From positions 1,674,001-1,738,000 of the forward strand of contig CM074704.1 in assembly GCA_037367355.1 (NCBI GenBank): a DNA stretch of 64,000 nucleotides, given 5' to 3'. Shown one piece after another: positions 26,250 to 60,471 of the stretch. The notes below the pieces were generated by a model. That model did not search any database, was not told where the DNA came from, and worked only from the letters and a program-made list of their open reading frames with translations. The stretch comes from Neoscytalidium dimidiatum (Eukaryota > Ascomycota > Dothideomycetes > Botryosphaeriales > Botryosphaeriaceae). A program made the translations under genes and the position numbers. Position 1 is the first letter of the stretch. Every line of letters begins with the position of its first letter.

Positions 26250-28132
26250 TCAGACCGCAGCATGGCCGTGCGTCTCAAACGGCAACCCAAAGCACGACAC
26301 GCCTACGCACACCCACAGCGCCGCGCTCACATAGATAGGCACGGTCGAGAAGCCGACATTCGCGCTGATCAAGCTGGCGCACAAGCCGCCGAAGCGCAAC
26401 AGCGTCGCCGCCGTACCCGTTCCCGTGCCTCTCATCGGGCCCGGGAAAGACTCGGGGGTAAAGGCGTACATTACCGCGTACTCTGGCAAGACAAGGCACC
26501 ATCAGCACTACAAGAGATCCAAGGAAAAGGCGATAATGAGAAGCAGTTACTCACCGAAGTTCCCCAGTATCCCGGTCACGCATTCGAACGCCAGGTTCTG
26601 CGTCTCGGTGCGCGCGCTGGTGTAGGCGAACAGGAAGACGCCGGTCAAGATGGCCGAGATGCCCATCATCCACCGGCGGCCGAACCGCGTCTCGACGAGG
26701 AAGCCCGCGGCGATGGGGCCGATGACGCCGACCGAGGAGACGATGCAGTAGTTGCGGTACGTCTTGTCGAGCGAGGTGGTAGTCGTGAATTTGGTTTCGA
26801 GGTAGGAAGGGAGAAAGCCGAAGAAGAGAGGGTAGGCGATGCCTGTTCGAAGGTGAGCGAGGAGGGATGGTGGAGGGAAATGGTGCTTCTGGGCTGAGAC
26901 ACGTACCGATGGTCAACCAGATTAACCAGGTCAGGCTGGTGTGCATGGCGAACTTGCGCGTTGCGAATAGGCTCTTGTACGCGACGCCCTTGTAATCCTT
27001 GAGGTTCTCGCGGATGATCTCTCGGTACGAGAGCCCCTTTGGTGCCGCGTCGGCATCCGTTGTGGCAAGGCCGAGAGTGGAGTCGATCTCCTGGAGCATG
27101 GTCAAGGTCAGGGTCTCGGGCTTGCCGTTGAAGCGCGCGATGTAGTTGACCGCATCGACGGCCTCGGCGTCGCGGCCCTTGGACAGCAGGTACCGTGGGC
27201 TCTCAGGCATTTTGAAGACGAAGATCCGGATGACACCAAAGGCGATGGCGATGGCACCCAGCGTGATCATAGTGTAGCGCCTTTTGTTTTCGTTAGCTAC
27301 CAAGTCACATATGTCAAAGCCGGAGGAGGAGCGAACTCACCACCCCATATTATCACTCCGGGAGCACGTCGTATAGTCGGAGCCCGTTGGGCAGGAGTAA
27401 TTGGCCAAGAATACCCAGCCAATCAGCGAAACGATGACCTGGCCAAAGTTCCACCACGCCGACAGCGCCGTCAGGAGCCACTGGTGGCTGCCCGGTACGA
27501 ACTCGAGGAAAATCATTGAGTCGACGGGCACGTTGCCGCCCGCCGCCGTGCCGATGACCGCCCACATGGCGCTGAAGGCGATGAAGTTCTGCGCGCCCGC
27601 CACCGCGCACCCAAAGATGCCGCCGATCAGGATGGTGGCGTTGAAGGCGGGCTTACGTCCGATGAAGTCGGCTGAGATACCCCAAAAGGAGGCACCTAAG
27701 ATGAGTCCGACGTAGTAGGCGACGGAACTGTAGCTGCGCTTGGTGACGTCGGAGAACTCGAGTGCCATGGGCGGCTGTACCGTGCTGATGCCCTGAGACC
27801 AAAAGTTGTCGGTAATCCAGCCGAAGCCTGTGACGATGAAGAGGAGCCATTGATATCTATGGAAGATGAGTTTGTGAGCTTGGAGACTCAGCGGATGATG
27901 GAATAGCTCTCGAATTGCTCGATACTCACTTTCCCATTCCAATTTCCGCAAGGTGCTTGCTGACAAGCTCTGACTTGAGCCGATAAGAGTCGCTCAAGCT
28001 GTTGCCATAGAAATCGCGGATGGTTGGGTCGTCGATGGCTTGGACGACGCCTTCGCCGTATGAAGCGCTCTTGGAAAGAGCATTTGAGATGGGGCCGTGG
28101 CCTTTCTCGTCTTTGATGTCTTCGGCCGACAT
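26250..28132 (-). CDS. hxnZ: MFS transporter, SP/SV2-like; hxnZ-type nicotinate-cluster permease
   Basis: Minus-strand exons 27930-28132, 27341-27856, 26907-27280, 26555-26842 and 26250-26482 give 537 residues. All four introns (60-73 nt) restore family text, for example DNMG-W-RYTM and LGNF-EYAV. About 12 membrane segments follow a 65-residue cytosolic N-terminus. Motifs include GWITDNFWSQG, SADFIGRKPAF (motif A) and FKMPESPRYLLSKGR (PESPR after TM6), which fit the sugar-porter/SV2-like branch of the MFS. It probably imports a pyridine carboxylate or related metabolite by proton symport. It is divergent from the 2-oxoglutarate oxygenase gene, as expected if it is the hxnZ partner of hxnY. 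The symbol rests on context and family. HxnP is the other transporter of the A. nidulans system and cannot be excluded. Confidence 0.72.
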
Positions 28133-28943
28133 GGCTGAGCCGCTGCTGACGTGTGGGTGGGAGGCGAGGGAGAGTAAGAAAATGAGAAAGCTCTCTCTCC
28201 TTCAGGCACGGGAGTGATGAGGTTGGTGGGATATGTATAACGCTACACTAAGCCCGGCTCCCCATGCTCGAACTGCCAAGTCTTAGTGTAAACAGCCAGG
28301 AGACGTTCTGGGATGTGCCAGTGACTGTTACCCAAAGCGGTTAGCATGAGTACGTCTCTGGAGACGGAGCGAATGCCATCACTGCTATTCTGCACTTCCG
28401 AATCATCCGCAACGGCTGGCCAGCCCCAGAGAGGAATGATTGCCAACAGTCACTCTTTTACGGGGCATGTACTCAGTATTCTGATACGCATTGCCACAAC
28501 GATGTTGATGATACAGTCAGGTATCGCAGATGCTTATCGGGACGACCGATAAACGATGCCCGGACCCCGGCAGAGTCCCCGCCCGGCACGCTTTATCAAA
28601 GATGGGGGGATGTCCTCCCACTCTTCGTTAGCGCCAAGGGTGCGGGGAAAGGAGCGGAGGCGTCGCGCGGGAACATGCTTGACTAAGCGACGAATCCTGG
28701 GATAGTGGAGAAAGAGTGGTGCCGCGTTCCCATGTTGGGGAACTTCGAGCCTGCTGACACTAAAGCTTGCTCAAAGTGGAATACAGAGCCAGGAAGTTCG
28801 ATATATCATACTGACTCCAGGACTCTTGTCCGCTGACTGAACATCTTCACCCGCCGTCTCAAAAGGGAAATTCGCGAATCATTCCGGCGGACCAATCATT
28901 TCCAGCCGTCATTTTGGCACAGTTTATTCCGGATAACTCCATC
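28133..28943. promoter_or_regulatory. Divergent promoter region between hxnZ-like and hxnY-like genes
   Basis: These 811 bp separate two divergent start codons. No coding feature is visible. A shared regulatory region would allow joint control of transporter and oxygenase, but no binding site is known to me well enough to mark. Confidence 0.45.
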
Positions 28944-30446
28944 ATGTCGAGTGAGCCGAACACCTCGCGCAGCCCACCTCTCCTCGACTTCTCCGCGTTT
29001 TACGACTCCGATCCAGCGAAAAAGCAGAAACTTGTTCGTGAAGTGCGGGATTGCTGTTTGCACAATGGTTTCTTCCAAATCACAAACCACACAGTGCCGC
29101 TAGAGCTCCAGGAGCGCGTGATGGCATGGAACAAGAAATTTTTTGACCTACCACTGGAGCACAAGAAGAAAGTCGGCAAAGGTAGGATCTGATTGAAAAC
29201 TTGACCCCGCTCTCCCCTGCTCGACGAGCTATGTAGAAAAGAGGGACCGCGGGAGAACGGCCTGGGCGGTACCGGGGATAGAGAGGTGTTGTGATCAAGA
29301 TAACTCGCTGACATTGCTGTTTCAGAGCTCAACACCTGGAACCGAGGCTACGAGTTGCTCCGCTCCCAGATCCTGGAAGAGGGAACGCTGCCCGAACTGA
29401 AAGAAGGTTTCTACGTCGGCGACGAGATCCCTGTCACGCATCCGTAAGGCGACGCAAACCCATACACACGATGAAACCAGCACATCACCCAGAACTGACC
29501 ATGTTGATAGCTACTTCGTCAACAAGAAGCTCAACTCGGGGCCGAACACCTGGCCGTCTCCCGACGTGCTGCCAGATGTAGAGGACTTCAAGCGCACGTG
29601 CCTCGACTATTATTACGCGGTGGTGGCCCTTGCGAAAGACATCCTAAAGGTGATTGCGCTATGCCTCGACCTTCCAGAAGATCACTTTCGCGAATTTGCC
29701 GATGACGCGGTGGCCACGATGCGGTTGCTGCACTACCCGCCTACCGAGAGGGGAGACGGCGAGGAGAAGTTGATGAGGGGCATCGGTGCGCACACGGATT
29801 TCGGAGCCGTGACGCTGTTGCTGCAGGACGAGGTAGATGGATTGCAGGTGTGGGACAAAGAAGTGAAGCAGTGGTTTGATGTGCGTGCCATGCGCCATTC
29901 CCCTCCCTCCGGCCCGAGAGTTTCCTCGCCTTTCCTCGTCTTTCCTGGCGGCGTGCACTCTCGACCGCTCCTCGCCGGACATGGCGGAATTTAGAACATA
30001 CTGACTCTGTTACTACCGCAGGTGATGCCGGTCAAGGGTGCGTTCGTAGTGAACCTCGGTACGTTTCTCGAGCCCATCTCTAGCCTTGGTTGCCTTGCTG
30101 ACATGACATGTATACAGGCAACCTGATGATGCGCTGGACCAACGACAAGTTCATCTCCAATACGCACCGTGTAATCAACAAGTCCGGGCGGGAGCGGTAT
30201 AGCATCCCGGTCTTCTTCAGCGGCAAGCCAGACTACGTCATCGAGTGCCTTCCGAACTGCCGGGCTTCCGAAGATGAAGCTCCCAAGTATCCGCCCATCA
30301 CCGTGGAAGAGGCGGTAAGCGGGAGCTACCGGGAGAGCTACGGCAGGGCGGAGAAGTGGAAGCGGGAGATGAAGAGGAAGGAAGAGGAGGAGCGGGCGAA
30401 GGCGGCTGGAGGTTTGACTGGCGCGCCTGCCGTGGCGGTTGCTTGA
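28944..30446 (+). CDS. hxnY: 2-oxoglutarate/Fe(II)-dependent oxygenase, isopenicillin N synthase-like (hxnY-like)
   Basis: Exons 28944-29181, 29326-29443, 29511-29880, 30022-30058 and 30118-30446 give 363 residues. The fourth exon is only 37 nt. The N-terminal DIOX_N part reads [12 protein letters not shown] and [16 protein letters not shown]. The jelly-roll core has the iron ligands H-T-D in [15 protein letters not shown] and the distal His in [11 protein letters not shown]. The 2-oxoglutarate-binding R-x-S lies in RERYSIP. Such enzymes hydroxylate small molecules with decarboxylation of 2-oxoglutarate to succinate. A cytosolic HxnY of this family belongs to the A. nidulans nicotinate set; its step is less settled than that of the others. 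A Lys/Glu-rich, then Ala/Gly-rich tail follows the catalytic domain. All motifs are intact. Confidence 0.82.
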
Positions 30447-32855: not shown

Positions 32856-35800
32856 CTAAACTCCCAGCGCCCCCTCCGCGCCCCCGATCATCCGCCACGG
32901 CACGAGCCCGCGCAGCACCATCATGCCGTCGTGCACGACCGCCCACCGCACCTTGCCCAGCTGGCGCGCGACGGTCGCGGCCAGCCCGCTCGTGCGGCGG
33001 CGCATGGCGGGCGGGCGGGTGCAGCGGGCGAGGTGCTCGAGACGGCGCTCCAGGCGCCAGGGGTCCGCGTCCGCTTGGGGGGAAGCAGCAGCAGCAGCAC
33101 CACCACCACCACCACCACTACTATCCGGCAGCGACGATGGTGGCGACGGTGCCGCCGTCATGCACGCGACCAGCTCCTCCAGCTCGCGGCGGGCGTCCCA
33201 GACCATTTCGTCTTCGGCTTCCCGGTCGTCGGGGTCGACGTCAACGTCGTCGCTGTCGTCCGGATCGCGACTTTGCTGATGGTGGTGGTTCGCCGACGAG
33301 ACGGCGTCGCCCACCGGCCGCGCCTGCCACCAGCACCACACGACGACGGTCGCGAGGTACAGGCACCACGGATAGTGGAACAGCCCGCCGGCGTCGAACC
33401 CGTCGAGCGCCTCGGCGCCCTCGCGGATCAGCTGTGCCGCCCAGCGCGCCGCGCGCGCCGCCCGCAGGCGCCCGCCCTCGTCCGGCGCGTTGGCCCAGCG
33501 CTTGACGACGCGGGCGGAGCGCGCGTGGTCGGCGCGCGCGACGGGGCGGCCGAGGATGTGGCGGGCGCCCGCGAAGATCTGCAGGTCGAGGAAGTCGGCG
33601 TGCAGGAGGGCGTGCGCGGCGTGGTGGATGGCCGCGGTCGCGGTGCGCCAGGTCGTGAAGTCGGCTCTGAGGTCTCTCGTGGAGGAGGACGAGGGTGAGG
33701 CGGGGTTGCTGTGACTATTCTTGTTGTTGTTGTTATCGGTGCAGCAAAAGAGCGAGAGGTAGCCGTTGCAGTACGCGTCGAAGTCCGCTTTCCAGGCGTC
33801 GTAGCTGGCGGCCATGCGGGTCTTCCAGTCGCCGATCGGAGAGGAGGAGTGCTTGTTGCTGCTGCTGCTGCTGCTGCCGCCGCCACCGCCACCGCCGACT
33901 AGGCCGAGCGACGTCTGGTCGCGTCGCTTCATGTCCCAGGAGATGGACATGAGGCCGTGAAGGATGAGAACGCGAGAGAGGGCGTTGAGGTTGCGCGGGG
34001 CTGGGGATGGACCGCCGCCAGGGGTTAGGTAGGCTTTGACGAGGGAGAGGAAGAGCGGCGATGAGGCGTGCTTGCTGTTGGACTTGCGCAGGCGCTGCCA
34101 AAGCTCGGCGGAGTGCGCTTCCCACAGCTGCTGGTCGCAGGGCAGGTTGGAGCGCAACTCGAATGCTGACATGCAGAGCGATTGGCAGAAGAGAACCGCG
34201 TGCTGCACGTCCCACATGAAACAGAAGAAGGCGAGGCTGTGGAAGAAAGCAATTGGTAAGTACGTGGAGCATTTCACTTGGCGCTGTATGGTGGCTTACC
34301 GCTTCTTCTGTTCCGCTTCCGCCCACGTCCTCCAGTCGTTGTCGAGATCTCCGCTTGAGCAGTCCTCTGCAACTGACGTGCGAATGGCTTGGCAGTCGCT
34401 CCTCCGGATGAGGTTGATGAGCAAACCGTGGAAGAGATGCGCCATGTCGTGCTGTTTCTGGCCGGCTCGGCTCTTGCCGAAGCATTCAACCAGGAGGATG
34501 GTCTGCAGCACCCATAGATCCGGCTTGGCGTTGAACCCTGCATGAGCGAAAATCTGGGGTCGCAGAACGTCGTGGATGCAGACCTGGTCACGTGAGTGCT
34601 ATGCAAACGATCAAATCTTCACGTTTGCGACTTACAGCCATCTGATGGGCGTCTTTTTCACAGTAAGTTGCTCCGAGCAGAAGAACAGACACAAGAAGAA
34701 GCGTCTCAACGTGCGAAGCGTCAAAAGTGGGCTGGTGGATTAGAGGGTAGGCGGTATTGAAGCGAGTGAAATACAAGTCACAGTAAGTTTGCAGTGATGA
34801 CAGTGACAAGAGGGGGTGGTTCCTTGAAATGTAGAGTCCGTCCGGTGTGACTGGTCTGGCAGCTTCAATCACGTCCAGGACTTGGGCACGAGCTACCTCA
34901 TCAATAACGGGAAGACTCGCGGAGCGGTTCATTGAGGACATTGGGCGTTCGAAATCGATCCCTAGCTGCGCTTGGCGAGCAGCGAGCGAATCGCGCGCGG
35001 CTTTGCTGTTCTCTCCGGTCGACGTGCTGAGCAGATCTGGGGCGTTCGGGGTCCGCGAGCGTCCAGGGGTAGCGCCGGTGACCGATTGCTGCCCGTCGGC
35101 GAGTGCGACATGCTGCGGCTCGAGGCTCGAGAGAGAAAGCGTGGCAGAGTCCGCCACGCTCATGTCGGGAATCACTGATGGGTGGGTGTGGGGTTGGGAA
35201 AGGGTAGCAGATGGTGCACCAGTCGCAGCGATCGAACTTCCATCTGCGGAGAGGGTAGCAAGCTCACTGACAGCTGGCGTATGCTCCGCGGGTACGCCTG
35301 TAGCGAAAGTATGAGTGGTTGGCCGACTATCAGGAGCAGCTTGGTCTACGTGCGTTGCTGAAAACGTACCAGACAGGATGTCTGGAGTCGAGGCGGTAAA
35401 CTGTTGCGCTGCTGCTGCCCCGAGATCGACGTCAAATAGCCAGTTGTAGTTGCTCATTGTCGTGAAGGGCATGTTGAACGAGCTGGCTTGGAGGCGGTCA
35501 GCCAATGGGAGACGCTGGTGCATAGCACGAACACTGAAAATGGTTGAAGCAGTTCCGTTTGATTATTCAATTAAAACGCTGACTTTTTCTCCATATTCTA
35601 CAGGCTCCCAATAGAAGTGGAACGGAGACATACCAGTGTCAGGATTGAATATATCGTCGTACGGCACATCCTCAGACAGATTCCTCAAACTTGACGTCTG
35701 CAAGCCGCCCGCGTTCGACCAAAACCGATCCGTCTCTTGCGTCAATGGCTCGGGCTCGGGGTATGTATGCTGCTCAGGTGCCGGGCTGAGATCGAGCGGA

Positions 35801-36678
35801 GGGAACACCCAGGTCTCGATGCTGGGCTCTGCCGCGTTCTCGCAGGCGTCGGACGATCTCCTCCCGTAGCCGTCCGACTGAGACGAGTGAGTGCTTGATA
35901 TGGGGGGCGAGATGGGCGCGTCACCCCTCAGGGTGTGGATCGCGTCTTCGAGGGAGCCCGTGGTGGAGGTGGAGAGCGACCTTCCGTGCTGGTCACTGGA
36001 CGGTGAGGAGCGACGGTTGGACGACTTGCCCAGGTTGGGGCGCTTGGTGACGATGTTGCCGTCGTGGTCCTTCCACATGCGCTTCCTGGTGTTGAGGACA
36101 CCGGCGCCCTCGGCGCCGGCTTCTTCGTCTTTCTGTCTGTGGCGCTGCATGTGCCTCTCTGCAGAACGCTGTCAGCCGGGTGCTCAATGGGTGGGGTTAG
36201 GTGGTGGTAGTAGGGCGATGGTAGGTGGGATGGGTCTTGGAGAGTGCCTCCACCCGTGGATCTGGAAACGTGGGAGTCCAAAAATAGCGGTATACCCCAT
36301 TCTTCAAAAGGAGCTTGAGCCGTCTGGAGAAGCCTGCGGGCGTGGAGTAGCTAGCGCGGGTATTTCACGAAAGGCCCGCGCCGGCACTCCCGTCCTGCAG
36401 ACCATCCACTGACGCCGAGTCAATTGGCACTTACCCAGCAGGTCCTTGCGCTTGAAGTGAGCTCGGCAGCGCTCGCAGGTGCTCTCTCCGGCAGTGTGGT
36501 TCAGCAGGTGTCTCTGCAGATGCTCGGAGCGAGTGAAGGCGCGGCCGCAGCCCTCAAAGGCACAGGCGAATTTCTTGACGGGCGTGTCGCCAGAAGCTGA
36601 CACAGTGCTGCTCTTTCTGCGAGCATGGGCGCGCTGGCCCGCAGCCGGGACGGCGGTGGTGGGCGAGGAATTGCGCAT
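32856..36678 (-). CDS. hxnR: C2H2 zinc-finger transcription activator with fungal_trans domain (hxnR-like)
   Basis: Minus-strand exons 36435-36678, 35634-36158, 35370-35486, 34636-35297, 34300-34583 and 32856-34236 give 1070 residues. Two classical fingers lie at about residues 36-88: FACAFEGCGRAFTRSEHLQRH, then C-E-R-C with KRKDLLERHMQRHRQ. The first intron (276 nt) splits finger 2 between its Cys and His pairs. A Ser/Pro-rich region follows, then SFNMPFTTMSNYNWLF and a fungal regulatory domain (FTRFNTAYPLIHQPTF, MWDVQHAVLFCQSLCMSAFELRS). The acceptor at 35487 was chosen because the nearer one gives a stop. In A. nidulans, HxnR of this architecture is the pathway-specific activator of the nicotinate genes. 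The protein carries Gly, Ser, Asn and acidic runs in its last third. The position among seven catabolic genes supports the symbol. Confidence 0.82.
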
Positions 36679-43713: not shown

Positions 43714-44373
43714 TGCGCGCCGTCTTCTCTCCGTCTTCTTCAACTCCAGCGGTGGGGTGGACGAAGCTGCTCCGCTCCCTTATCAGCACTCAGCACCCAA
43801 TGTAGGGATTTGGAACCGGCAATGTACTCACACTGACAGCCGTCGGTGTTCTGACTGACTTGGCAACGACTTACCGCGGGTTTCCCAGTGAATGCGCGAA
43901 GCTATGCCACCTCTTCCGCGACGAAGCGGATATATGAAGTTGGGAGGAGCTGCACGTGTGGCTATCTCCTCCTCTTACCGACGGTAACCTTACTTCCTTG
44001 CCCTTGTGCGACGCAGCCGACGGGAGCGGATCAGCCGCCGGTCGCTCATTGCGACCATTCATCGATCAGCATTATCAGCCACCCGCTCACTGGGCCGCTA
44101 AATCCAACCCCCTCCCACTCTTAGCTCTCCCACTCTCTATCCCGTTCCCACTCCTCCACACGCCGCCTTTCGGGCTTCAGCGCCGACCGCACTGCTCATG
44201 CCTGAATAGCCTTCGTGGGACGCAAGACTTCCAGGTGCACGTACAAGAACCGGGCAACATGGCGCAATTACCTCTGTCTGCTCTCTATTTTTCTTTTACT
44301 CTCACTCTTGCGCTCAACCCTCCTCCCATACCACAGTCCGTTTCCCTCTCTTCAATTCTCGAAAAAATCAAAA
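43714..44373. promoter_or_regulatory. Divergent promoter region between hxnS-like and hxnT-like genes
   Basis: These 660 bp lie between two divergent start codons. The hxnT side carries a long CT-rich leader (about 44100-44360) typical of fungal 5' UTRs. No open frame here is supported as a gene. Confidence 0.5.
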
Positions 44374-46852: not shown

Positions 46853-47968
46853 ATGGGCAAGAAGCGCGTGCTCGTCAGCTACGGCGTCGACATCGACGCC
46901 GTCGCCGGCTGGCTTGGATCGTACGGCGGCGAAGACTCGACGAGCGACATCAGCCGCGGTACGCCTCACCTCCGGCGGTCCAGCCGAGACCAAGCACTGA
47001 CAAACACCAGGCATGTTCGCCGGCACGATCGGCATCACGCGGCTGCTCAAGCTCTTCGCCAAGTACAACATCAAGGCGACGTGGTTCATCCCGGGACACT
47101 CGCTCGAGACGTTCCCGGACGAGTGCGCGGCGGTGCGCGACGCGGGCCACGAGATCGGCCTGCACGGCTACTCGCACGAGAACCCCAAGGACATGACGTT
47201 CGAGCAGCAGCGCGACGTGCTCGACAAGACCTGGCGCATGCTGACCGACTTCTGCGGCGGCAAGCCGCCCCGCGGCAGCGTCGCGCCGTGGTGGGAGGTC
47301 AGCCGCGAGGGGACGGAGCTGCTGCTGAGCTACGGCGTCGAGTACGACCACTCGATGAGCCATAGCGATTACCAGTGCTATTGGCTGCGGACGGAGGACC
47401 AGTGGACCAAGATCGATTATTCGAAGAAGGCCGAGGAGTGGATGAAGCCGCTGGTCAAGGGGAAGGAGACGGGTCTGGTGGAGATTCCCGGGAGCTGGTA
47501 TATCGACGACCTACCGCCGATGATGTTCATCAAGGGTGCGCCGAACAGTCACGGGTGGGTGAGCCCGAAGGTGGTGGAGGAGCTGTGGATGGTGAGCACT
47601 GCGGAATTTACATGGCTGCGCAGCTGGATTGGGGCTGACGCCGGGCAGGACCATTTCGACTACTTTTACCGCGAGTACGACGAGTTCGTCTTCCCGATGA
47701 CGATTCACCCGGATGTAAGTGGGCGTCCGCACGTCCTGCTTATGCATGAGAGGTAAGACGTTATGAATTATTGTAGCCTTTGAGCAATGCTGACGACTTC
47801 GGCAGGATCATTGAGCACATCAACAAGCACGAGGGCGTGGAGTGGGTTACGATGGAGCAGATGTGTGATGATTTCAAGAGCAGAAACACGCCGGCACCTG
47901 GTGCTATGATGCCAACACCGATTGAGGAGGTTTTGAAGAAGTACGAAGCAAAGAAGGCTGCTGCATAA
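46853..47968 (+). CDS. hxnM: Polysaccharide-deacetylase-fold hydrolase: cyclic imide hydrolase (hxnM-like)
   Basis: Exons 46853-46958, 47011-47591, 47649-47752 and 47806-47968 give 317 residues. The second intron (57 nt) is a multiple of three and has no stop, so it reads through in a naive translation. Removing it restores [18 protein letters not shown]. The NodB-like fold shows the metal-binding Asp in [11 protein letters not shown] and the H-x3-H pair in [13 protein letters not shown], with [11 protein letters not shown] and [15 protein letters not shown] later. This subgroup, close to PuuE-type allantoinases and often labelled peptidoglycan deacetylase, includes cyclic imide hydrolases. 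In the nicotinate pathway HxnM would open a cyclic imide made from the pyridine ring. The protein has no signal peptide, which argues against a cell-wall role and for a cytosolic one. Confidence 0.82.
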
Positions 47969-48612: not shown

Positions 48613-50175
48613 ATGGCACCCAGCCCACCCACCGTCCAGCAAAAAATGGAGCGCGACACCTCCACCAAATTCAATGCATGTCTTCCCCCTCCCCCTCTTT
48701 CCCTCTCTTTTCCCCCCCTCTCCTCCAGTTTCCGCCCCTCGACTAACCAACCCCTCCCCGACAGATCACAATCATCGGCGCCGGCCTCGGCGGCCTGGGC
48801 GCCGCCATCTCGCTCCTCCTCGCCGGCCACGCCGTCACGGTCCTCGAGTCCGCGGCCCAGATCTCCGAGGTGGGCGCGGGCATCCAGTGCCTGCCGAACA
48901 GCACGCGCATCCTGCTCGCGTGGGGCCTGCGGCGCCTGCTCGCGCCGCACCACACGCAGCCGCGCCGCTGCAACATGCTCGGCTGGAAGGGCAACGCGCT
49001 GGGCTACATGGACTTCCACGAGTACGCGGACGCGTGCGGGACCCCGTTCTGGGACTTCCACCGCGCGAACCTGCACGCCGGCTTGCTGGAGCGCGCGCGC
49101 GAGCTCGGCGCCGCGGTGAGGGTGAGCGCGCGGGTCGTGGACGTGGTGTGCGAGGAGGAGGAGGCGGCGGCGGATGGGGTGAGGAGCACGGCGACGTGCG
49201 TGCTGCAGACGGGCGAGCGGGTGGTCGCGGATCTGGTCGTCGGCGCGGATGGGATCAATTCGCGGTGCAGGGAGATTTTGCTGGGGAGGGAGGATCCGCC
49301 TGTGTTGACCGGCGATCTAGCATACCGGTTGTTGTTAAGGACGGAGGATATGATGAAGGATGAGGAATTGAGGGGGTTCGTCGAGGACCCGCAGGTTAAT
49401 TATTGGATGGGGCCGGATGCGCATGCCGGTGAGTTGTCTTTGGGATTGTGTGGAGAGGGTTAGTGCTGACGGTTGTACAGTGAATTACGTCTTGAGGGGC
49501 GGCGAGCTGTTTAACATGGTGCTGCTTGTGCCGGATGATATGCCCGCCGGCGCGACGACGCTAGAGGGCAACGTCGAGGAGATGCGCGCACTGTACAAAG
49601 ACTGGGACCCGCGGATCCCGAAGCTGCTGGCGCTGTGCGAGAGCGTGTACAAGTGGCGCTTGTGCATCAGGCCGACGCTGGAGCCTAGTTGGTCAGATCC
49701 ATCAGGTGCTTTTGTTCTGTTGGGCGATGCCGTCCATGCAACGCTGCCATATCTGGCAAGTGGAGCTGGCATGAGTTTGGAAGATGCGAGTGTGCTTGGA
49801 TTGTGCCTTGCGAAGATCAAGAATAAGAGCAAGGAGGAGAAGGCGAAAGCGCTGAAGGTGTACGAGAAGTGCAGGAAGGAGCGGACTGAGCGGGTCGTGC
49901 AACGGGGAAACCTGCAACAGCACTTGTACCATATCCACGATGGCGAGGAGCAACAGGAAAGAGACAGACTGTTCGCGGCGTGGACCGAGTTTGAAGAGAT
50001 GAAGAGGAGAGGTGAGAATCCAGACCCCGCGAAGATGGGGTTGGTACAAGGGAGTGATCCATTTCCGTGGAGGTTTAGTGGCGTAGGAGATTGGCTGTTA
50101 CCTTATGATTGCGTGAAAGACGTGGAAGCAAACTGGGGAAGAGAGGAAGATGTGATGGAGAGGGCAAACTTATAG
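48613..50175 (+). CDS. hxnX: FAD-dependent hydroxylase, salicylate-hydroxylase-like: 6-hydroxynicotinate monooxygenase (hxnX-like)
   Basis: Exons 48613-48675, 48765-49428 and 49481-50175 give 473 residues. The first intron starts with GC (AAT|GCATGT) and ends CCGACAG; only this choice joins TKFN to ITIIGAGLGGLGAA in frame. The Rossmann FAD loop G-A-G-L-G-G-L lies at about residue 26-32. VVGADGINSRCRE is the DG motif, and LLGDAVHATLPYLASGAG is the GD motif that binds FAD ribityl. These are class A flavoprotein monooxygenase hallmarks. In the nicotinate pathway HxnX converts 6-hydroxynicotinate to 2,5-dihydroxypyridine with NAD(P)H and O2, in the manner of bacterial NicC. A Lys/Glu-rich helix (EEKAKALKVYEKCRKER) follows the catalytic core. 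Other salicylate-hydroxylase-like activities are possible on sequence alone. Confidence 0.83.
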
Positions 50176-50365
50176 ATAGGTATGTCGAATTCAACATGAG
50201 CTCGTACTATACGGAACTCTTGGCTAATCAAAAAAAAAAAAGGAAAATCGGGCCACAAGAGAACCTAAAGTCCATCATCCACTGCTTGGGGTAGTTATCG
50301 ATATTTGTCCTCAACAGTCCCATGACCAAGTTCAACTGGTACAGGAACGAGCAATTCAATTCAGT

Positions 50366-51732
50366 ATGCCAAATAAGGAAACATCCACGGACGCGACTTC
50401 TTTAGATGAATCACTCTCTCTGAGTGAGTCACACGAATTCTCCTATGCTGAGACATCTTCCCTAGGTATTTTATTCTCAAACAACAATCATCAACACCAA
50501 CCTTCATCAACAAACTGCGCAAGTATAACCATGACTTCTCACGATAATCACAGTACACAAACTCGAACGAACCCTTCGCTCAGTGAGGTGGAGGCATCGG
50601 TATTCAAGAAGTGGGAAAATATTTCTGACAGCCTCAGCAGCGTGGAGTGGTATGCTCTCCAAGCATTGATACAACAGCGAACAGGAGATCATTCCCGTCC
50701 CCCTCTGGAGACGTTGAAGGCGGCGAAACGCCAAGTATATAGGTCGCCATTTGGGATCTTCGACACACCGGCATGGCTGGAATGGCGCGCAACTCACCCG
50801 CTAAGAGAGCCTGCACGCCTCAAACAGGAATCTTCTACGAAAGCTACCACTTCCAATCCAGCGACTTCTGGATCTGGAATAGCTGATCAGGTAATCTCAT
50901 GCCGCTCTGAACGATATTCAACTCCTGCTGATGCTTCGATCAGTCTCATACGGGAACCAATCAATCCCGGAATACCGTTGACAAGCAGAATTCGCCCAAC
51001 ATCAAGATGGAAGATGGCGAGCAAGCTTCACCGAAGCGGAAGGCGGACGGCGATTCTTCTGATACAGCACCAAATAAAGTGAGCCGAATATCCACAACAA
51101 CAGCTGCATCGTCTCTTGATGATTATCCTTTGGCCGGCCCTCGATTAGGTGCTCCGAGTCGAGATACGGGGTCAAATTCTGGCGCAGCATGTCCGCGCCG
51201 TAGTTCGCGTCTCAATAAACGCCCGGATACTAAGGCCCAAGGCAATGCTGCTCATTCAACCCCCATCTTCCCTCAAGAACGTGTTTCGACACTCAACAAT
51301 CCCTTCAGGATTTGGCAGCTTACATATCAGCCTGTGTCATACCACGATGTGCAGACAGTAATACGGAACACGATTGGCGATGCCCCGACCGTGAAAGTGC
51401 TTATTAAGTGCCGAGATCGTAGTTCCTGGACCCTTGACCCGCTGGACTCCAAGCCTTGGGTGATTTGGAGATATGGCCGGTATCTTCGTAACCATATGGA
51501 CGGCTTTCGAGGCAAGACACTACTTGGAACCGTCGAGTGGGACATGAAAAGAGTCATTTCGGCACTTCTCGATACCAATGACTCTTACGTACTGCAGTTC
51601 TTCACCGCAGTCTTCGGTCTGGTGCCAGAAGAAGAAAAGCGAAGGCTCAGGCAAATCTTAGGTGAAAGAGGTACTGATGGATCGGGTTTCGATCAATTCC
51701 TTGGGAAATTTGAATCGGTTGGTAATGATTGA
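50366..51732 (+). CDS. Orphan protein, disordered N-terminus and conserved-looking C-terminus
   Basis: Exons 50366-50890 and 50944-51732 (intron 53 nt, GTAATC...CTGATGC...CAG) give 437 residues. The join GIADQ-SHTGTNQ keeps the frame and avoids a stop. I do not recognise the family. The first half is rich in Ser, Thr, Asn and Gln and predicted disordered, with a small hydrophobic segment around WYALQALIQQR. A basic patch (SPKRKADGD, RRSSRLNKRPD) resembles a nuclear localisation signal. The last 150 residues look folded (FRIWQLTYQPVSYHDVQTVI, KPWVIWRYGRYLRNHMDGF, YVLQFFTAVFGLVPEEEKRRL). Base composition is less GC-rich than the hxn-like genes around it. It sits inside the cluster, between hxnX- and hxnV-like genes, but has no counterpart in the known pathway. 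Confidence 0.65.
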
Positions 51733-52186
51733 GAATGCTGAGCTTAATCTTAATACTCACAAAATGCATGCTTGCTAGTCCCGGCTGGTTATATCTCCCC
51801 AACTTCAGCTTCTTTTTAATACTAGATTCTCCAGCCTGAAGAGTTTGCTTAATCGAGGATCAGTATACAGGAGGGAGATCGTTAAAATCAAGGCTTCCGG
51901 CCAGAGTGATATGTGTCATTTTTTGGTACCATAGGGAAAAATAAATTCAAGACTTTCTGTCTTCTGATTCTCTGCAGAACGTTTCACTTATCAAATCATC
52001 TAATAACTATAATTCTTCGTTGCATCTAGTACGATGCGGCCCCCACGATCCCCATCAAGTTAGGACGTTTGGCTAAAAATACCTCCTGCGGCGCGGCGCG
52101 GGATCACCCTTTAAAACAGCCCTCATTTCCCACGTCCCACCGTGCAAATCCTCCGCATTCACAACCACAAGCCCCGAATTTGCACC
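51733..52186. other. AT-rich spacer
   Basis: About 450 bp of AT-rich sequence with no supported frame. It leads into the 5' flank of the membrane protein gene. Confidence 0.5.
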
Positions 52187-53288
52187 ATGATAATTCCTCG
52201 CGGCCTAGGCCGCCCCGGCTTGGAGCCGATCAAAAGATACGGCTCCTGGCGGAACTATATCGCTCTCCTGATCATCAGCCTGCTTCCCTTCCTCATCTTC
52301 TTCGTCGGCTCAGTAATCTCCCTTATCCAGCTGATGCACCATCGCACGTGGTTCCTCTGGGGCACCGTGATCGCCGGGCAACTGATCTCGTACGGCGTCC
52401 TGTACGGACAGGCGCTGCAGCCACACCTCAAGCCTCTCGTCCGCACCCGCGACGAGTGGGCATTCGTCTCCATCATCGAGTAAGTAGCACCACATTTCAC
52501 GCATCACTTCGCACGGCTTCTGACATGTCTGCTCCATGCTCGCAGCGTCGGCGCGGCTTTCCTCGCGCACGCAGCCTTCGCGACGCTCTGCCGCCTCGCC
52601 TGGTCCGCCGTCCCGGCGTCACCGGTATCCGCTTCTTCAGCGTCCTTTCCAGCAACCGACGAATCCCGGAAGGTGCTGCGCGATCGCCGCGTCGGCTACC
52701 TGCTGCTCGTTCCGCATGCACTGACGCCGCTCGCGGCGCTGTGGTGGCCCGTGGTCTCGTCCTGGACGCCGTTCTTGCAGCTGCCGTTTTGCGCGTACTT
52801 TGCTACCATTGCGTTCGAGTACCGGCGGCTGGCGCTGGAGTGGGGGCTCAAGGAAGGGGACGAGGAGGATGAGGACGTGGGGAGCGGGAGGCCAGTCGGG
52901 ACGCTGTTTGATGCGTTGGTTGCAGTTGCGGGGGTGATGACGGTGAGTTCCCGCCCTTTTCATTTCCTTTCTCATTCTGCTGCCCGTGAGTTGCTGACGA
53001 AGGCTAGCTGCGCTCAATCCTGGGTATTTTGGCCGTAGCACTTGGCGTGTCTCAAAGCCCGTACAAGTACGTGTCTTTGGCGTACGCCGTCATTGTTGAT
53101 GACGTCCTCCTCTTTGGTAAGTTCCTCCTTCCGGATTTCGGCAGTTGCAGCCCGGACTTACTATGGTTACAGCGTGCTTCAAAACTTTCTGGAGGCATCA
53201 TCCTGGGAAGTATCTGCCTCCGCAGCTGCTCTCCTTCCGTTTCAACCATCAAGCGAGAAAATCATATGCTCGAATTGCCTTGGGCTAG
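52187..53288 (+). CDS. Multi-pass membrane protein of unknown function
   Basis: Exons 52187-52479, 52546-52942, 53008-53116 and 53173-53288 give 304 residues. All introns are 56-66 nt with GT-AG ends and keep phase (joins IIE-D-VGAAF, VMT-LRSIL, LLF-A-CFKT). Six or seven hydrophobic segments are visible: IALLIISLLPFLIFFVGSV, FLWGTVIAGQLISYGVLYG, AFLAHAAFATLCRLAW, VGYLLLVPHALTPLAALWW, FLQLPFCAYFATIAF, ALVAVAGVM-LRSILGILAVAL and a final one near YVSLAYAVIVDDVLLF. An acidic loop (EGDEEDEDVG) and a basic C-terminal tail (FRFNHQARKSYAR) flank the last segments. I recognise no transporter or enzyme signature. It lies within the nicotinate cluster, but no known hxn gene resembles it. The clean splice pattern argues that it is expressed. 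Confidence 0.7.
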
Positions 53289-54518
53289 AAATTTCGAGAG
53301 ACGGTTTGTACCCTCTGGCGTAACGCTTCGGTGCTATCTACGGACCATGCTCATGGGTTGAGTGATTGGGATGATGGAGATAGTCGGTTTTGCACGGTTC
53401 CTGTATCGAAGGTCCTCGATCATCCGTTCCAAACCAGGGAACATTCAGATCTAGGATTTGCTTGAACTCGGGCTTCTACAGCTGGCACCACCACTGTGCG
53501 TTATCGAAGAAATGACGCGTTACCGTCCGCTTGGCACCACGGAGGTAAACGCGCCGTTGGGTTACAGACGACCCTCTGAAGCCGGGGCCATTCGAAGGCT
53601 CCAAAGCTCCGGTTGCGAGCACGGCGAGATAAACTTGCATCAGCTCGCCTACGGCCAATATCCCGACCGTTGAGTCGGCAGGGCCCACTATGGCATGCCG
53701 CATCGTCGGAAATATATTGACCAATAGCGAGATTGATCACGGGCCGGAGACGCTCCAGGACAAGGGTTTATACTATCACGAAAGCTTGCTATAATGGCAT
53801 ACACAAAAGAGCCTTCGGGCATTGGTGGCCAGAACATCTATTTGTAATGCGTGCCTCACTTGCCACAGAGACCTCGTCGATAAGTTTCGATGCAATCTGC
53901 CTGCGGACATCCGCTTTGTGGGGTTTCACCACGGGCCTGTCACTCCGGACTTTATTCATCTACCTTGCACCTACTGACGCACAGACAGTTTCGAGGAGCA
54001 TGCACCCATGTCCATATATCTCCTCCGCACACTCCTACCATCAGCGAGTCTCGAAAGAGGAAAGTTGAAACGCGTTACTTGGTAAACCACCACGATGTTA
54101 AGCTTAAAGAAGGGGAGGGTCCCTGCAGGATAGTAGTGACCGGCCGAATGCTTTAACATGCTCGAGCACATGACCACGTCCTAATCAACAAAGCCCGAAA
54201 GCAAATCCCAGACAATCAACTCCGTCTCCGTCTTGTCGAGTACGCGCGTTACTCTACCCAACCTTGTACGCAAGCAGCCCAGCAACGAGAAAAAGGAAAA
54301 GCCAAAAGAAACCCCAGCTTACCGAAGGGGGGAAACAAAATTACAAACGCCGTATCTATGTACCAGCCGAAGAATGCCCTTTCCTCTCAGTCTCTCTTCT
54401 CAGTCCAAATAACCGCGTGTGAACTAGTCGGTGCCCCTGCCCTCTCTAGCATATAAAACCGTGATCTTGTGCAAAAAGAGCCGTAACCCCTCCTCCCACG
54501 GCACGCGTCCCGGCGCCC
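53289..54518. other. Spacer of 1.2 kb
   Basis: No supported gene. The flanking genes are convergent (membrane protein and hxnV-like), so both ends are 3' flanks. Confidence 0.5.
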
Positions 54519-56867
54519 CTAATAATTCGGCGCGCCGACCTCATCGGTCAAGAACCCCTCGAAATACTCGTCCAGCCACCTCATCGCCTCCTGGCCCTCG
54601 TCCCTGCCGCCGCGCTCCCACACGCGCACCATGCCCACGTAGCCGTCCGGGCGCATGACGGCGATGGCGGTCTCGGCGCCGTGCAGGCCGCCGAGCCACT
54701 TCTCGATGCAGCCCATCTTGCGCGTGTCCTCGGCGGCGACGTCGTCGAGGTAGACGGTCCAGGCCGAGTCGCGCAGCGCCTGGGGCAGGTCGGCGATCTC
54801 GAAGCCGCTCTTGGGCATGGCGGTGACGAGGGCGTAGGTGAAGAGGCACGAGACGGTGGTGTAGCGCTCCGGGCACACGAACTCGTCGTGCGGCGCGGCC
54901 AGCGGCGGCTGCAGCGTGTAGCTGGCGTTGGCGGCGGCGCTGATGCGGCCCATGAACGACTGCTGGCTGTTGGCCACGCCGCACACGGCGTCGACGAACG
55001 GCCGGCTGGCCAGCGCGTCGTTGCAGAAGAAGTAGACGCGGAACTGGCCCAGCATCGGGATGTCCAGCTGGATGTCGACCGGGTTGGCGTCCATGTAGCG
55101 CGTCACCTTGGCCGGCGTCGGCAGGCACCCCGGCCGCAGGTCGCCCTTGAGCACGCCCTTGGACGCCATGTTGAGCGCGTTGGGCCCGTACTCGGCGCCG
55201 ATGCCCGAGATGAAGCGCACGTTGGTCATGAAGTTCTGTGCTAGCGCGCTCGAGTCGCCCGCCGCGAAGGCGTTGGCGTGCTCGTAGTCGAAGTTGATCA
55301 GGTCCTGCGCGATCTTGCGTCGCTCGTCCTCGTACGTTGCGAGGAGCTCGGGCTTCGCGAGCTTGCGCACCGCAAGGTTCAGCTTCCAGGCCAGGTTCCA
55401 GGCATCATGCATCGATGTGTTCCTGGGGTGGGAGGAAACAGGTTAGTCTCGTTTCAATTTCCCTTTTCTTTTTAGATCTGCGATTGGAGCGAGTTTTTTG
55501 CTTCTGTTTTTTTTTTTCCTTTTCTTTTGGGAGGATCAAACACTCACATGCCCTGTGCGGCCTTCGGCGAATGGGTGTGGCTGGCCTGTGCGAAAAAAAA
55601 AAAAAGATGGTCAGCACGAATGATCTACGGCGAGTCGGGCGGGGGAACGCTCACGTCTCCGCAGATGTACACTCTCCCCCTTTCATCAGTGAATTTGGTA
55701 GCGACCCTCTGGCCAACCTGGTATCTTCCGAACCATTCTTCGAAGTGTTAGCTTGGCAAAGTTTCCGTAAATAAGGGGCATTCGCGAATACGAGGTGTGA
55801 CGTACCGACCGTCTTCCACTTCAGGTGGAACGGATCCATGATCTCTTGCGCTCTGTGCATGACGAATTCCTGGGTGAGCTCGTCTCTGGACGCGCTCCCT
55901 CTCGATTCCGACTTCAATTCGATGTACAGTCTTGTCAGATTGCGCTCGCGCGGGATGATCAGGACGGAGCCGGCCTCCTCGGAGTAGATCACTGCCTTGG
56001 ACCAGAGATCCGGAAAGTTTGTTTCGATCTGGCCGTCCAAGACGCCCCAGACGGCGTCTGACGAAGCTCCCACCGGCTGGGCTCCGGGAATAGACTTTCG
56101 CACCTGCGAGTGGGCGCCATCGCATCCGACAACGTAGCTGGTGGTCAGAGTTCGCCTCTGGTGCTGGACGTCGGTCATGCAGGTGACCTCAATGGGAGCG
56201 GTCTTGCCGGTGTAGGCGAAGTCCATGAATGCGGTGTTCCTGCGGACATCGATTCCACGCTCTTTCAGGTCGTTGATGAAAAGCTGCTCGATCATGCCCT
56301 GGTGGACGAGTAGGATGTACGGGTCCAGCAAATCCACGGTCTCGTGCGGATAGTGCACCTCTCTTCCGGCCCTGTGCATCTTCTCGTTCAAAGCAGACCT
56401 CTGCGGTCCAAATCAGCGCTTTTGACGACGGAGCGGGGAGGGGCGGGGGGGAAATGGGAAGAAGAAAAAAAAAAGGACCGTACCCAGAAGCAGATGTCGA
56501 AGACTTTCACGCCCTTGCGGAGCAGAGGGTCAACGAGCCTCATCTGGCGCAGCGTCTCAATGGACTTGGGCTGCAGGCCATCGGCCCTGCCGGTCAAGGT
56601 GCGGTCCGGTCTGTTGTCGATGATCTGGACCTTGATTCCGAAGCGAGCAAGATTGTCCCTGGGCAGGATTTCTCAGCAATCGGAGTTCGGCAGCGGGAGG
56701 TCGACTTACGCGAGCATGAGGCCGGCGGGGCCAGCTCCAACGACCAAGACATCGCTGGTGGATGGGCCCTGGAAACCGTAGTTGCCGTTGAGATGGGGGA
56801 CGTCGGCCGTCAACACATCGACGCTGCCTTCTCTGAGTTCTTCGTCCGGAATCTTGCTGGGGGACAT
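54519..56867 (-). CDS. hxnV: FAD monooxygenase, phenol 2-monooxygenase-type (hxnV-like)
   Basis: Minus-strand exons 56710-56867, 56484-56658, 55806-56400, 55655-55737, 55548-55585 and 54519-55422 give 650 residues, the usual length of phenol 2-monooxygenases. The start [12 protein letters not shown] is preferred; an in-frame ATG at 56924 would add 19 residues. The exon of 38 nt (55548-55585) carries the middle of the GD motif ([24 protein letters not shown] in two parts). The FAD loop is [12 protein letters not shown], the DG motif is [14 protein letters not shown], and a C-terminal thioredoxin-like domain starts near [12 protein letters not shown]. In the A. nidulans nicotinate route HxnV hydroxylates the dihydroxypyridine to a trihydroxypyridine. 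The phenol-hydroxylase family is broad, so the substrate is inferred from the neighbours. Confidence 0.83.
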
Positions 56868-57518
56868 TTTGTGGAACCTTGAATGTGCGCTGCGCCTGAT
56901 CAGACCCCATAGTTGCGGAGGCATCGCCAATAAAGGGAGGTCTCGGCTGGGCTCGAAGAGTGGGAAAAGTGGTGGTGGTGGAAGACGGATCCATCTTGAA
57001 GCTCACGCGAGGGCGCGCAGCCGCGACGGGCTTGGATGGTCAGGCGCAGGGGCACTCACCCAGCATCCAGGATGCCACTGCCACCGGCGGCCGTTATTGG
57101 TGGCCTGACAAGCTCCAGAATACTTTTGCCCCGTGGCAGCGGCAGCGTGCAGCGTGCGGCCAGAGTAAGGCAGAGAGTAGCAGAACGCAGTGGATTTGCG
57201 CGGCGACGCTCGGACGGCCGGCCGGCCAGCCAGCCAGGGGTGGATCGCTCGGGAATGACAGACGCACGCGCACGCACACACACACGCACGCTGTGGACAG
57301 AGGCACTAGTGGCTCCTCCGTCTCCTCCGTCTCCTCCTCCTCCCCCACTTTCCAGCCGCGGGCCCTCGGCTTGGCCGCTCCCCCGTACAATACCTTACGT
57401 CGTGCCTCGTCGTCGTCGCCGCCGCCACGGAGGCCCTGCTCGCCAGCCGACCTGCCCATCCTTGGGGCCTCGGGCTCGCGACAAGCCTCCCGTGGTCGAC
57501 GGCGCTGCGGCTGCGGCC

Positions 57519-57550
<32 letters not shown>

Positions 57551-57695
57551 CGGGGCGCGGGCTGCACGTGGCCCGCGTGCAAGTGTGTACAAATGTTGCG
57601 TGTATGGCGACGGCGGCGGCGGCGACGGTCGTGCTGTGCTGCGCTGCATCCTCCCCTCGCTCGCCCTCCGCCGCCGTAGTAGTGGTAATAACGCA
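56868..57695. promoter_or_regulatory. Divergent upstream region of hxnV-like and hxnN-like genes
   Basis: About 830 bp between divergent genes. Base composition is very GC-rich on the right, with a GCTGCG-type hexamer repeat at about 57504-57550. Long frames here come from the GC bias and show no domain. Confidence 0.45.
57504..57550. repeat. Imperfect GCTGCG hexamer repeat
   Basis: About eight copies of GCTGCG or close variants (GCCACG, GCTACG) lie in tandem about 150-190 bp upstream of the amidase ATG. Confidence 0.85.
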
Positions 57696-60471
57696 ATGGG
57701 CAGCACCGAGAAGCCTTCGTGGCTCGCCAAAGCGCAGCAGAAGCGCGCTTTGCAGGCCGCGGCAATCGACGCTTTCCTCTCCGAGCATCCGCCCGTTCGG
57801 GTATGTCATACCAATCGGTGCCTCTGGGCATTTTCTTTTTCCCTCGCAACCCCGTGTTTTAGCTATCGCGCACGCAGTGTTGCTTCTTTCCGCGCCTGCC
57901 CGCCGCCAACCACACCGCCTCCCTGTCTTGTCTCTCGATTCATTTCAGGCGCCTTTCTGATGCGCGTGCCCAGGACGCCCGAGGACATGCCGCCCACTCC
58001 GTCACGGACATCGACGACGTCGAGCAGCTGCTGGCCGCCATCTCCACACGCGCGGTGACTGCCGTCGAGGTGGCTGTCGCGTACATTCGCAGGTGAGGGG
58101 CCGAGCTCTGCATCGCGTGCGGGCACAGAGACCTGATTCAGATCCGTCTGCCGGCCGCGATGATCTCGTCCTTGTCCAATTTTTATGGAGAACCTTCTAA
58201 CGACGGCGTCAATCGAGCAAAACCACAGAGCCGTGGCAGCACATGGCAAGGTAAGACAGAAAGGAGTGGCACGTACCGCAAATTTCCCGCTTTGGCCTGC
58301 AGCGCCGCGACGCGACGCCCGAACGGCCAACCGCCTCTCATTCTTCTTTTCCCTTCCTTTTCCTCCTCCTCCCCCCCCCCTCCCCTCACGACTCACGACT
58401 CGTTGCGCCCTCCCGACGGCTTCCGGCTAACAGGGCTCATCCCAGACCAATTGGCACGTAATCCCGCTCTCGGGCCGCCCAGCGTGCTAACCGTTTCGTT
58501 TCAGCCTTACGGAAGTCCTTTTCGACGACGCTGTCCGCCGAGCCAAGGAGCTTGACGAGCACCTTGCGGCGACCGGCAAGCCGATCGGCCCCCTCCACGG
58601 CCTGCCCGTGACCTTGAAGGACCAGTTCGACGTCAAGGGGTACGACAGCACCATCGGATACGTCGCGAAGGCCTTCCGCCCGGCCGCCGCCGATGCCGTC
58701 GTCGTCGCGCTCCTCCGCCAGATGGGCGCCGTCATAATCGCCAAAACCAATCTTCCCCAGTCCATCATGGTAAGTCGGTACGTCTCGTATCGTTCTAACG
58801 GCCGTCGGCCGTCGGCCGGTCGCCCCGGCGCGCGCCCGGTTCGTGCCTTAAAAAAAAATAAAAAAAATAAAAAACTAGCGGCCCGCTGGTCGGAGTTATC
58901 TGCGAGAGAGCGATGGCGTCCGTATTGGTAATAAAAGCGAAACGTGCCCTTAAGCTGCATCCAGTATTGGCCTAGGCGCTATACTTCAACTTCATCCCCT
59001 TTCCTATTTTAGACCGGCATGTTCCTTCTCATCGTCGACGGTTGTGCTTTTTTTTTTTTTTTTTTCCCTTTTTCTCCAATAGCTCGGGTCGGCTTCAGTG
59101 CGTGCTCTTTGCTGCACTGGTCGCCTTCGCTGCGCCTCAGGGGGGGGAAATGCGGTCGCTTTCATTGGCCTTGGTCCTTAGATGCGGTATGCTATAGGGT
59201 GTGTCCTGACTTGTGTGCGCGATATGGCATTATTATAGTGGTGCGAAACCGAGAATCCGCTTTGGGGCCTCACGACCAATCCTCGCAATCCCGCATTTAC
59301 GCCGGGCGGCTCGACCGGTGGGGAAAGCGCGCTGCTCGCGGAGCACGGTTCAGTGGTGGGATGGGGTACCGACATTGGCGGCTCCATTCGCATCCCGAGC
59401 CACATGCTCGGCTTGTACGGCCTGAAACCCAGCGTGCGTGGCCCCCACCCATTCCCCTCCACCCTCCCCCCTCGCTGTTTACGTATACCCAGTACCGTGT
59501 ACCGGGGGAAGCTTATCCGATGTAGAGTGGTCGCCTGCCTTACCAGAACGTCACCGTTTCTACCGACGGCCAGGAGCATGTCCCCTCCGTCATCGGCCCG
59601 CTCGCTCGCTCGCTGTCTTCGCTGCGCTTCGTGACCAAGGCCGTCGTCGACGCTGCTCCGTGGGAGCATGACCCGAAGGTTGTGCCTCTGCCTTGGAGGG
59701 CAGACGTCGAGGCCGAGATCCAGTCTCGTCCGCTGGTGATAGGCCTGATCGTGGACGACGGTGTTGTACGAGTCCATCCTCCCGTCGAACGGATAGTCAA
59801 GGAAGCAGCTCGCAAGCTGGAAGCCGCTGGTCACGAAGTAATCCCATGGGACAATAGCGGTCATCGCGAATGCATCGACATCATGGTACGATGATCCCGT
59901 TCTTCTTGGCGGAGGCGCTGTCTAACGAAAATCCAAGGACCAGTTCTACATCGCCGACGGCGGCGAGGACGTCCGTCGTGAAGTCCTCGCGGGTGGAGAG
60001 CCGTTCATCCCGCACGTCGAGGCTCTGGTGAACAGAGGCAAGCCGATCTCGGTGTACGAGTACTGGCAGCTCAACAAGCTCAAGCACGAGCAACAGAAGC
60101 GCTACCTCGACAAGTGGAGCGCTGCGCGATCGCCGTCGGGTCGCAAGGTTGATGTCCTCCTCACTCCCGTGATGCCGCACTCGGCGGTGCCCCACAGAGG
60201 CTGTCGGTGGGTCGGCTACACCAAGGTCTGGAACTTCCTGGACTACAGCGCTGTGGTGCTGCCCGGCGGCGCTGTGGATAAGAGCGTCGATGCGAAGGCC
60301 GATCCCAGCTACAAGCCGAGGAATGCGCTGGATGAATGGAACTGGAATCTGTATGATCCGGAGGCGATGGATGGAATGCCTGTTGGAGTGCAGATTGTGG
60401 GTCGCAAGTTAGAGGAAGAGAAGGTTCTGGGAGCGGCGAAGGTGGTGGAAGCTATTCTGAAAGGGCAGTGA
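57696..60471 (+). CDS. hxnN: Amidase-signature hydrolase (hxnN-like)
   Basis: Eight exons give 535 residues: 57696-57800, 57974-58092, 58229-58250, 58446-58453, 58505-58769, 59239-59433, 59526-59885 and 59938-60471. The 22-nt and 8-nt exons restore RAVAAHGK-TNCLTEVLF, text expected of fungal amidases. The 8-nt exon (ACCAATTG) is followed by a GC donor. The catalytic triad is complete: Lys123 in TLKDQFDVKG, Ser198 in GGSTGGESALLA and nucleophile Ser222 in GWGTDIGGSIRIPS. Amidases of this family hydrolyse a carboxamide to acid and ammonia. In the nicotinate pathway HxnN would deamidate the opened-ring product, freeing nitrogen. The intron at 58770-59238 is 469 nt, long for this genome. The microexon choice was made by hand from phase and conservation. 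Confidence 0.82.

Follow-up and report, generated by a model that had tools for sequence, protein, structure and literature searches.

We asked whether a stretch of the Neoscytalidium dimidiatum genome (43.76 Mb in 40 contigs), at positions 26250-60471 of a 64,000-nucleotide window (C10:1674001-1738000), encodes a nicotinate-utilization system related to the hxn regulon of Aspergillus nidulans, which is distributed over three loci (1/VI, 2/VI and 3/I; PMC5746545, PMC8478523, PMC9304392), or some other assemblage of catabolic genes. Judged from its sequence, the stretch is, very probably, an inducible hxn cluster of a Botryosphaeriaceae fungus that comprises nine of the eleven hxn genes. The genes present, their order and strands, their domains and their diagnostic residues were observed directly and are described below together with the points that weigh against this reading and the alternatives that they suggest.

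An initial annotation had placed nine hxn-type families side by side in this stretch, and gene models, Pfam matches and PDB comparisons bear this out to the exact coordinates (Table 1). The order and strands are hxnZ(-), hxnY(+), hxnR(-), hxnS(-), hxnT(+), hxnM(+), hxnX(+), a membrane protein gene(+), hxnV(-) and hxnN(+), so that, as also claimed, members of all three A. nidulans loci are joined here: Z, Y, R, T and S; X and V; M and N (table 1 of PMC8478523). The models are predictions of a small purpose-written gene finder, with Pfam support for 8 of the 9 families and the molybdenum (Mo)-hydroxylase assigned through PF02738 and PDB; ordinary GT-AG introns and open reading frames are present in all nine. 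The divergent couples S/T and V/N are found and Z/Y are likewise divergent, whereas the couples M/W and P/Y are lacking because hxnW and hxnP were not found in the stretch. The single major facilitator superfamily (MFS) gene is assigned, by the size and type of its predicted product, to HxnZ rather than HxnP; in NCBIfam, its nearest models are of the OCT/SV2/aromatic-acid symporter types, all below the cut-off.

The identity of the key enzymes is indicated by residues that go beyond the family fold. All five checked features that separate HxnS from the xanthine dehydrogenase HxA, as taken from PMC5746545, are present in the HxnS candidate: the FATAL motif with its alanine insertion, His in place of Phe1013, Ser-Gly, Pro1008, and an aliphatic residue, read by eye, at the position of bovine Phe417. 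The only other PF02738 gene in the genome, on contig C4, is the fungus's own HxA; it has none of the five (FTAL, Phe, Ala-Ser, His and Tyr instead) and is 57.8% identical to HxnS over 1339 aligned positions. In HxnX, 8/8 A. nidulans HxnX active-site residues were recovered (Gln59, Val223, His232, Val234, Tyr236 and Val247-Leu248-Leu249), and in HxnV, D79, I140, K246, L258, I260 and Y270 correspond, by eye, to all six published residues (Asp65, Ile126, Lys231, Leu243, Ile245 and Tyr255). The three published HxnT residues His183, Asn186 and Tyr372 are matched by H192 and N195, located by script as HxxN, and by Y399, identified by eye. The hxnM product matches PDB 3qbu (HpPgdA) with E=1.6e-123, the structure named as the closest to HxnM in PMC9304392.

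HxnS is longer here than in A. nidulans (1488 vs 1396 aa). Separately, its iron-sulfur and flavin adenine dinucleotide parts are joined by a long linker rich in Ser and Cys, at approximately residues 205-340 (window 41700-43150).

For the regulator HxnR, 7990 candidates were scored and 204 of them are homologs at E <= 0.001; the analyses below use the 120 best. The only named protein among these 120, from Colletotrichum sidae, is designated by its source 'Nicotinate catabolism cluster-specific transcription factor'. No close paralog of HxnR was found in the genome, the next relative showing 38% identity over the regulatory domain, and the region following the zinc fingers reads VLNTRKRMWKD, compared with the published nuclear localization signal VLETRKRMRRA. 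A phylogeny of HxnR had been proposed as a check in the initial annotation. Our 33-row tree comprised the window protein, the 38% paralog and 31 of the 120 homologs, with no A. nidulans HxnR. In it, the window protein groups with other fungal HxnR homologs and falls within Botryosphaeriaceae, where its sister is the protein from Macrophomina phaseolina (support 100/100). The paralog used as the outgroup sits on a very long branch, which makes the rooting unreliable, and with so distant an outgroup and no A. nidulans HxnR, membership in the HxnR clade rests mainly on similarity. The five HxnS features, the 8/8 and 6/6 active-site matches of HxnX and HxnV, and an HxnR that groups in the tree and lacks a close paralog thus jointly support the hxn-type reading.

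These observations bear on the possibility that the stretch is a chance neighborhood of common catabolic families. Each family is indeed common by itself, as the initial annotation stated; these families are widespread in fungi, and 57 exon-level matches to HxnX are detectable in this genome. However, chance is not a serious explanation because nine of the eleven pathway members are found together and HxnS, HxnX and HxnV carry pathway-specific residues; the combination is as improbable by chance as had been claimed. The divergent couples are conserved as well, and the same linkage recurs in other fungi. We compared the contigs of the 31 organisms common to the best 120 of 204 hxnR matches and the best 120 of 3047 hxnN matches, using the longest contig listed for each protein and taking equal size to indicate the same contig. 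On this inference, hxnR and hxnN are linked in 21/31 fungi, and locus tags agree for Diplodia seriata (SLS55_008235/008230), Coniothyrium (ACN47E_010260/010265) and Plenodomus (NX059_004195/004191). Coincidence is thereby refuted in practice, and we assign it a negligible probability.

Several lines of evidence weigh against the assignment of the stretch to nicotinate utilization or against the completeness of the pathway, and are considered in this and the following two paragraphs. In 10 of the 31 fungi, the hxnR and hxnN contigs are of unequal size, some of them representing different strains or assemblies. There is no clear enrichment of predicted HxnR sites: when the AreA consensus HGATAR and the HxnR consensuses GHGGGG and GNGGDG (all from PMC8478523) were counted in nine intergenic regions with 200 shuffles each (27 tests), only the region upstream of hxnM stood out, with 8 GHGGGG sites vs 2.3 expected (reached in 2/200 shuffles) and 19 GNGGDG sites vs 8.5 (0/200), an excess that is weak given that 27 tests were made. 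The V/N intergenic region contains no HGATAR.

The best PDB relatives of HxnX by sequence are 8gsm (4-hydroxybenzoate 1-hydroxylase) and 8x38 (vanillate 1-hydroxylase), ahead of NicC (5eow), and its predicted C-terminus is ANL (window 50170-50175), not the SRL published for A. nidulans. Of the two formulas for a type 1 peroxisomal targeting signal quoted in PMC12316961, ANL satisfies the relaxed one and fails the canonical one, so that peroxisomal import of HxnX is uncertain. The proximity of HxnX to decarboxylative hydroxylases would be expected if the cluster served another aromatic or N-heterocyclic acid with enzymes of the same families, for example, in a hydroxybenzoate route, and the hxn cluster of A. 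terreus is reportedly induced on salicylate (PMC7842363). Nevertheless, we regard such a route as very unlikely: of the eight HxnX residues, compared by eye, 8gsm lacks two; the HxnS-specific residues, the cyclic imidase HxnM and the amidase HxnN are explicable only by a substrate with a nitrogen ring; and the sole named HxnR homolog among the 120 is called nicotinate-cluster-specific.

The remaining points concern missing or imperfect genes. No hxnW-like short-chain dehydrogenase/reductase (SDR) gene was found in 26250-60471 by gene models, SDR scans or tblastn, and the space upstream of hxnM, the usual position of hxnW (in Cyphellophora europaea, hxnW is divergent from hxnM; PMC8478523), holds no gene. 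Likewise, hxnP, which would be a second MFS gene, was not detected in 26250-60471; the search for hxnP was confined to this stretch. Three genome-wide SDR scans, in which the best candidates were scored (18 of 297 for PF13561, 16 of 260 for TIGR03971 and 19 of 326 for PF00106), placed no window locus among those scored. A tblastn comparison of five SDR proteins of the genome against the window gave nothing below E 0.01, the best match (0.018) lying at ~8.3 kb, outside the cluster. In the gaps of the cluster, the gene finder detected nothing else that was convincing; on the strand opposite the membrane protein gene, a 73-aa frame scored 10.1. Nor was hxnW identified elsewhere in the genome: none of the SDR proteins fetched convincingly matched the motif spacing published for HxnW. 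The nearest of them, at C6:581620-582315, has a Ser-Tyr distance of 15 but differs in the other distances, and the PDB proteins most similar to it are mannitol or gluconate dehydrogenases; it was rejected. Finally, about 8-10 HxnN residues between the second and third supported exons could not be placed.

Loss of hxnW and hxnP and damage to hxnN would make the stretch a shortened or decaying hxn cluster, no longer able to sustain growth on nicotinate and perhaps sufficient for some derivatives only. The lack of an SDR gene or relic in the window and the hxnN gene, with its unplaced segment and several long introns, are compatible with this scenario, but we consider it improbable. All nine genes have open frames and GT-AG introns, and with hundreds of SDR candidates in the genome (297 in the PF13561 scan), hxnW may lie elsewhere. 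In A. nidulans, the pathway requires HxnW once the ring has been reduced (PMC9304392), and therefore either an unlinked hxnW or another dehydrogenase would be expected here. A tblastn exon map places hxnN exons with ortholog support at 57696-~57797, 57974-58092, ~58503-58769, 59239-59433, 59526-59885 and 59938-60471. Segment by segment, most are 80-98% identical to those of Neofusicoccum and Lasiodiplodia, and the HxnN orthologs of these two genera are 80-85% identical across the whole query. Damage to hxnN seems unlikely since the gene models of Neofusicoccum, Lasiodiplodia and Saccharata, although automatic, skip the same short segment, which is thus probably not a lesion private to this genome. 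Members are missing from many accepted hxn clusters (PMC8478523).

Two of the hxnN introns are unusually long, at 58770-59238 (469 nt) and 58093-58502 (~400 nt), and one contains a run of T. In hxnM, the automatic model probably includes an in-frame intron of 57 nt (47592-47648), the removal of which gives a product of 317 instead of 336 aa. Two other HxnM-like loci, from which the clustered hxnM is distinct, lie outside clusters, at C9:1386186-1387197 (44% identity in the best pieces) and C7:2032900-2033940 (43%). Unclustered HxnM homologs are known in dikarya, and transfer of hxnM into Dothideomycetes has been reported (both PMC8478523).

For the hxn cluster as we read it, every reaction, the inducer and the regulation are proposed by analogy with A. 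nidulans, the order of reactions following PMC9304392. A nicotinate-derived metabolite would activate HxnR, which would switch the cluster on when preferred nitrogen is short. HxnS would then convert nicotinate to 6-hydroxynicotinate, HxnX would convert the latter to 2,5-dihydroxypyridine, and HxnV would yield 2,3,6-trihydroxypyridine. After saturation of the ring by HxnT, the cyclic imide would be made by HxnW or a substitute dehydrogenase whose gene lies elsewhere, HxnM would open this imide, and HxnN would free the amide nitrogen of the second product. HxnZ, and possibly the inserted membrane protein too, would handle transport.

Comparison with known systems shows both what is shared and what differs. 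The A. nidulans regulon and the present cluster have in common nine orthologous families, the S/T couple, a two-finger HxnR, the HxnS diagnostic residues, and the HxnX and HxnV active-site residues. In contrast to the three loci of A. nidulans, a single stretch is found here, in which hxnW and hxnP were not detected, hxnY is divergent from an hxnZ-type gene rather than from hxnP, and there is an extra membrane protein gene. The single 11-gene clusters of C. europaea and Hymenoscyphus repandus (PMC8478523) likewise include hxnM, hxnN and the S/T couple, and the V/N couple is arranged as in C. europaea; these clusters hold all 11 genes, whereas ours has nine plus an unrelated insertion and lacks the hxnM/hxnW couple. 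The initial annotation implied that a layout in one stretch instead of three loci is new; this is already in print, contiguous hxn clusters having been described (PMC8478523, PMC7842363). According to PMC8478523, hxnM and hxnN belong to the cluster in Pezizomycotina outside the genus Aspergillus; the S/T couple is mostly conserved, and the V/N couple is conserved outside Aspergillus. The five further genes are recurrently clustered in Ascomycota (PMC7842363). The only new points are the two pathway genes not found in the stretch and the extra, lineage-specific membrane protein gene. No report of hxnR or a nicotinic acid gene cluster in Botryosphaeria or Botryosphaeriaceae was found in the open-access literature searched, so the case of this family may be unreported there.

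The extra gene, an orphan located between hxnX and hxnV, encodes a 289-aa product with several hydrophobic segments, has no Pfam match and has no second copy in the genome. Only three relatives were found at E <= 0.001 among 5.77 billion proteins: those of Botryosphaeria dothidea (67%) and Diplodia corticola (48%), both Botryosphaeriaceae, and a third (60%). Hydropathy gives 4 to 6 membrane segments among the four relatives, and an AlphaFold model of the B. dothidea protein, based on three sequences, has a mean predicted local distance difference test score (pLDDT) of 43.7, too poor for a structure search. The D. corticola relative and the D. corticola HxnR are both listed on a contig of 66197 bases, and this gene is therefore probably near hxnR in that species too. 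Lineage-specific foreign genes inside hxn clusters are known (nfsA, pfdB and others; PMC8478523), and the present insertion is of this kind; as a membrane protein without a Pfam match, it is unlike the insertions listed there. We speculate, with low confidence, that in Botryosphaeriaceae the hxn regulon could have the orphan protein as a twelfth, lineage-specific member and that another dehydrogenase could stand in for HxnW in the pathway of this family; a role in the uptake or export of pyridine intermediates after the loss of hxnP would be a guess.

Table 1. Features of the predicted hxn cluster, in window coordinates
Feature	Position	Strand	Details
hxnZ-type MFS transporter	26250-28132	(-)	5 exons, 537 aa (A. 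nidulans HxnZ 533 aa); PF07690, PF00083
Intergenic region common to the divergent hxnZ/hxnY pair	28133-28943	.	gene models
hxnY, 2-oxoglutarate (2OG)-Fe(II) dioxygenase	28944-30446	(+)	363 aa; PF14226, PF03171; HxD at 213, RxS at 281
hxnR, C2H2 + fungal_trans regulator	32856-36678	(-)	1062 aa; C2H2 motifs at residues 39, 68; PF04082
hxnS, nicotinate hydroxylase (putative), xanthine dehydrogenase family (Mo-hydroxylase)	39112-43713	(-)	1488 aa; PF02738, PDB
Divergent hxnS/hxnT promoter region	43714-44373	.	gene models
hxnT, old yellow enzyme	44374-45786	(+)	419 aa; PF00724
hxnM, cyclic-imide hydrolase (putative)	46853-47968	(+)	336 aa, automatic model; PDB 3qbu
hxnX, 6-hydroxynicotinate 3-monooxygenase type (salicylate-hydroxylase-like)	48674-50175	(+)	~454 aa, first exon tentative
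Orphan membrane protein gene	52187-53454	(+)	289 aa, 4 exons, last exon tentative; no Pfam
hxnV, phenol 2-monooxygenase-like	54519-56867	(-)	650 aa; PF01494, PF07976; PDB 2dkh, 1pn0
Divergent hxnV/hxnN promoter region	56868-57695	.	gene models
hxnN, amidase	57696-60471	(+)	PF01425; ortholog-supported exons

The genes bordering the cluster are an F-box-like gene (24632-25954, below the Pfam cut-off) and a DUF7730 gene (60964-63442). Elsewhere in the window, a gene for a secreted-looking copper amine oxidase is present at 4590-7060 (+) (PF01179, E=1.3e-127). G+C content is lower (46-49%) in 18000-24000 and 50000-52000, and the gene finder predicted no gene in 18000-24500 or 50170-52000.

With this stretch, a nitrogen-salvage cluster known from ascomycetes gains a Botryosphaeriales example, which confirms that the A. 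nidulans layout in three loci is the exception.

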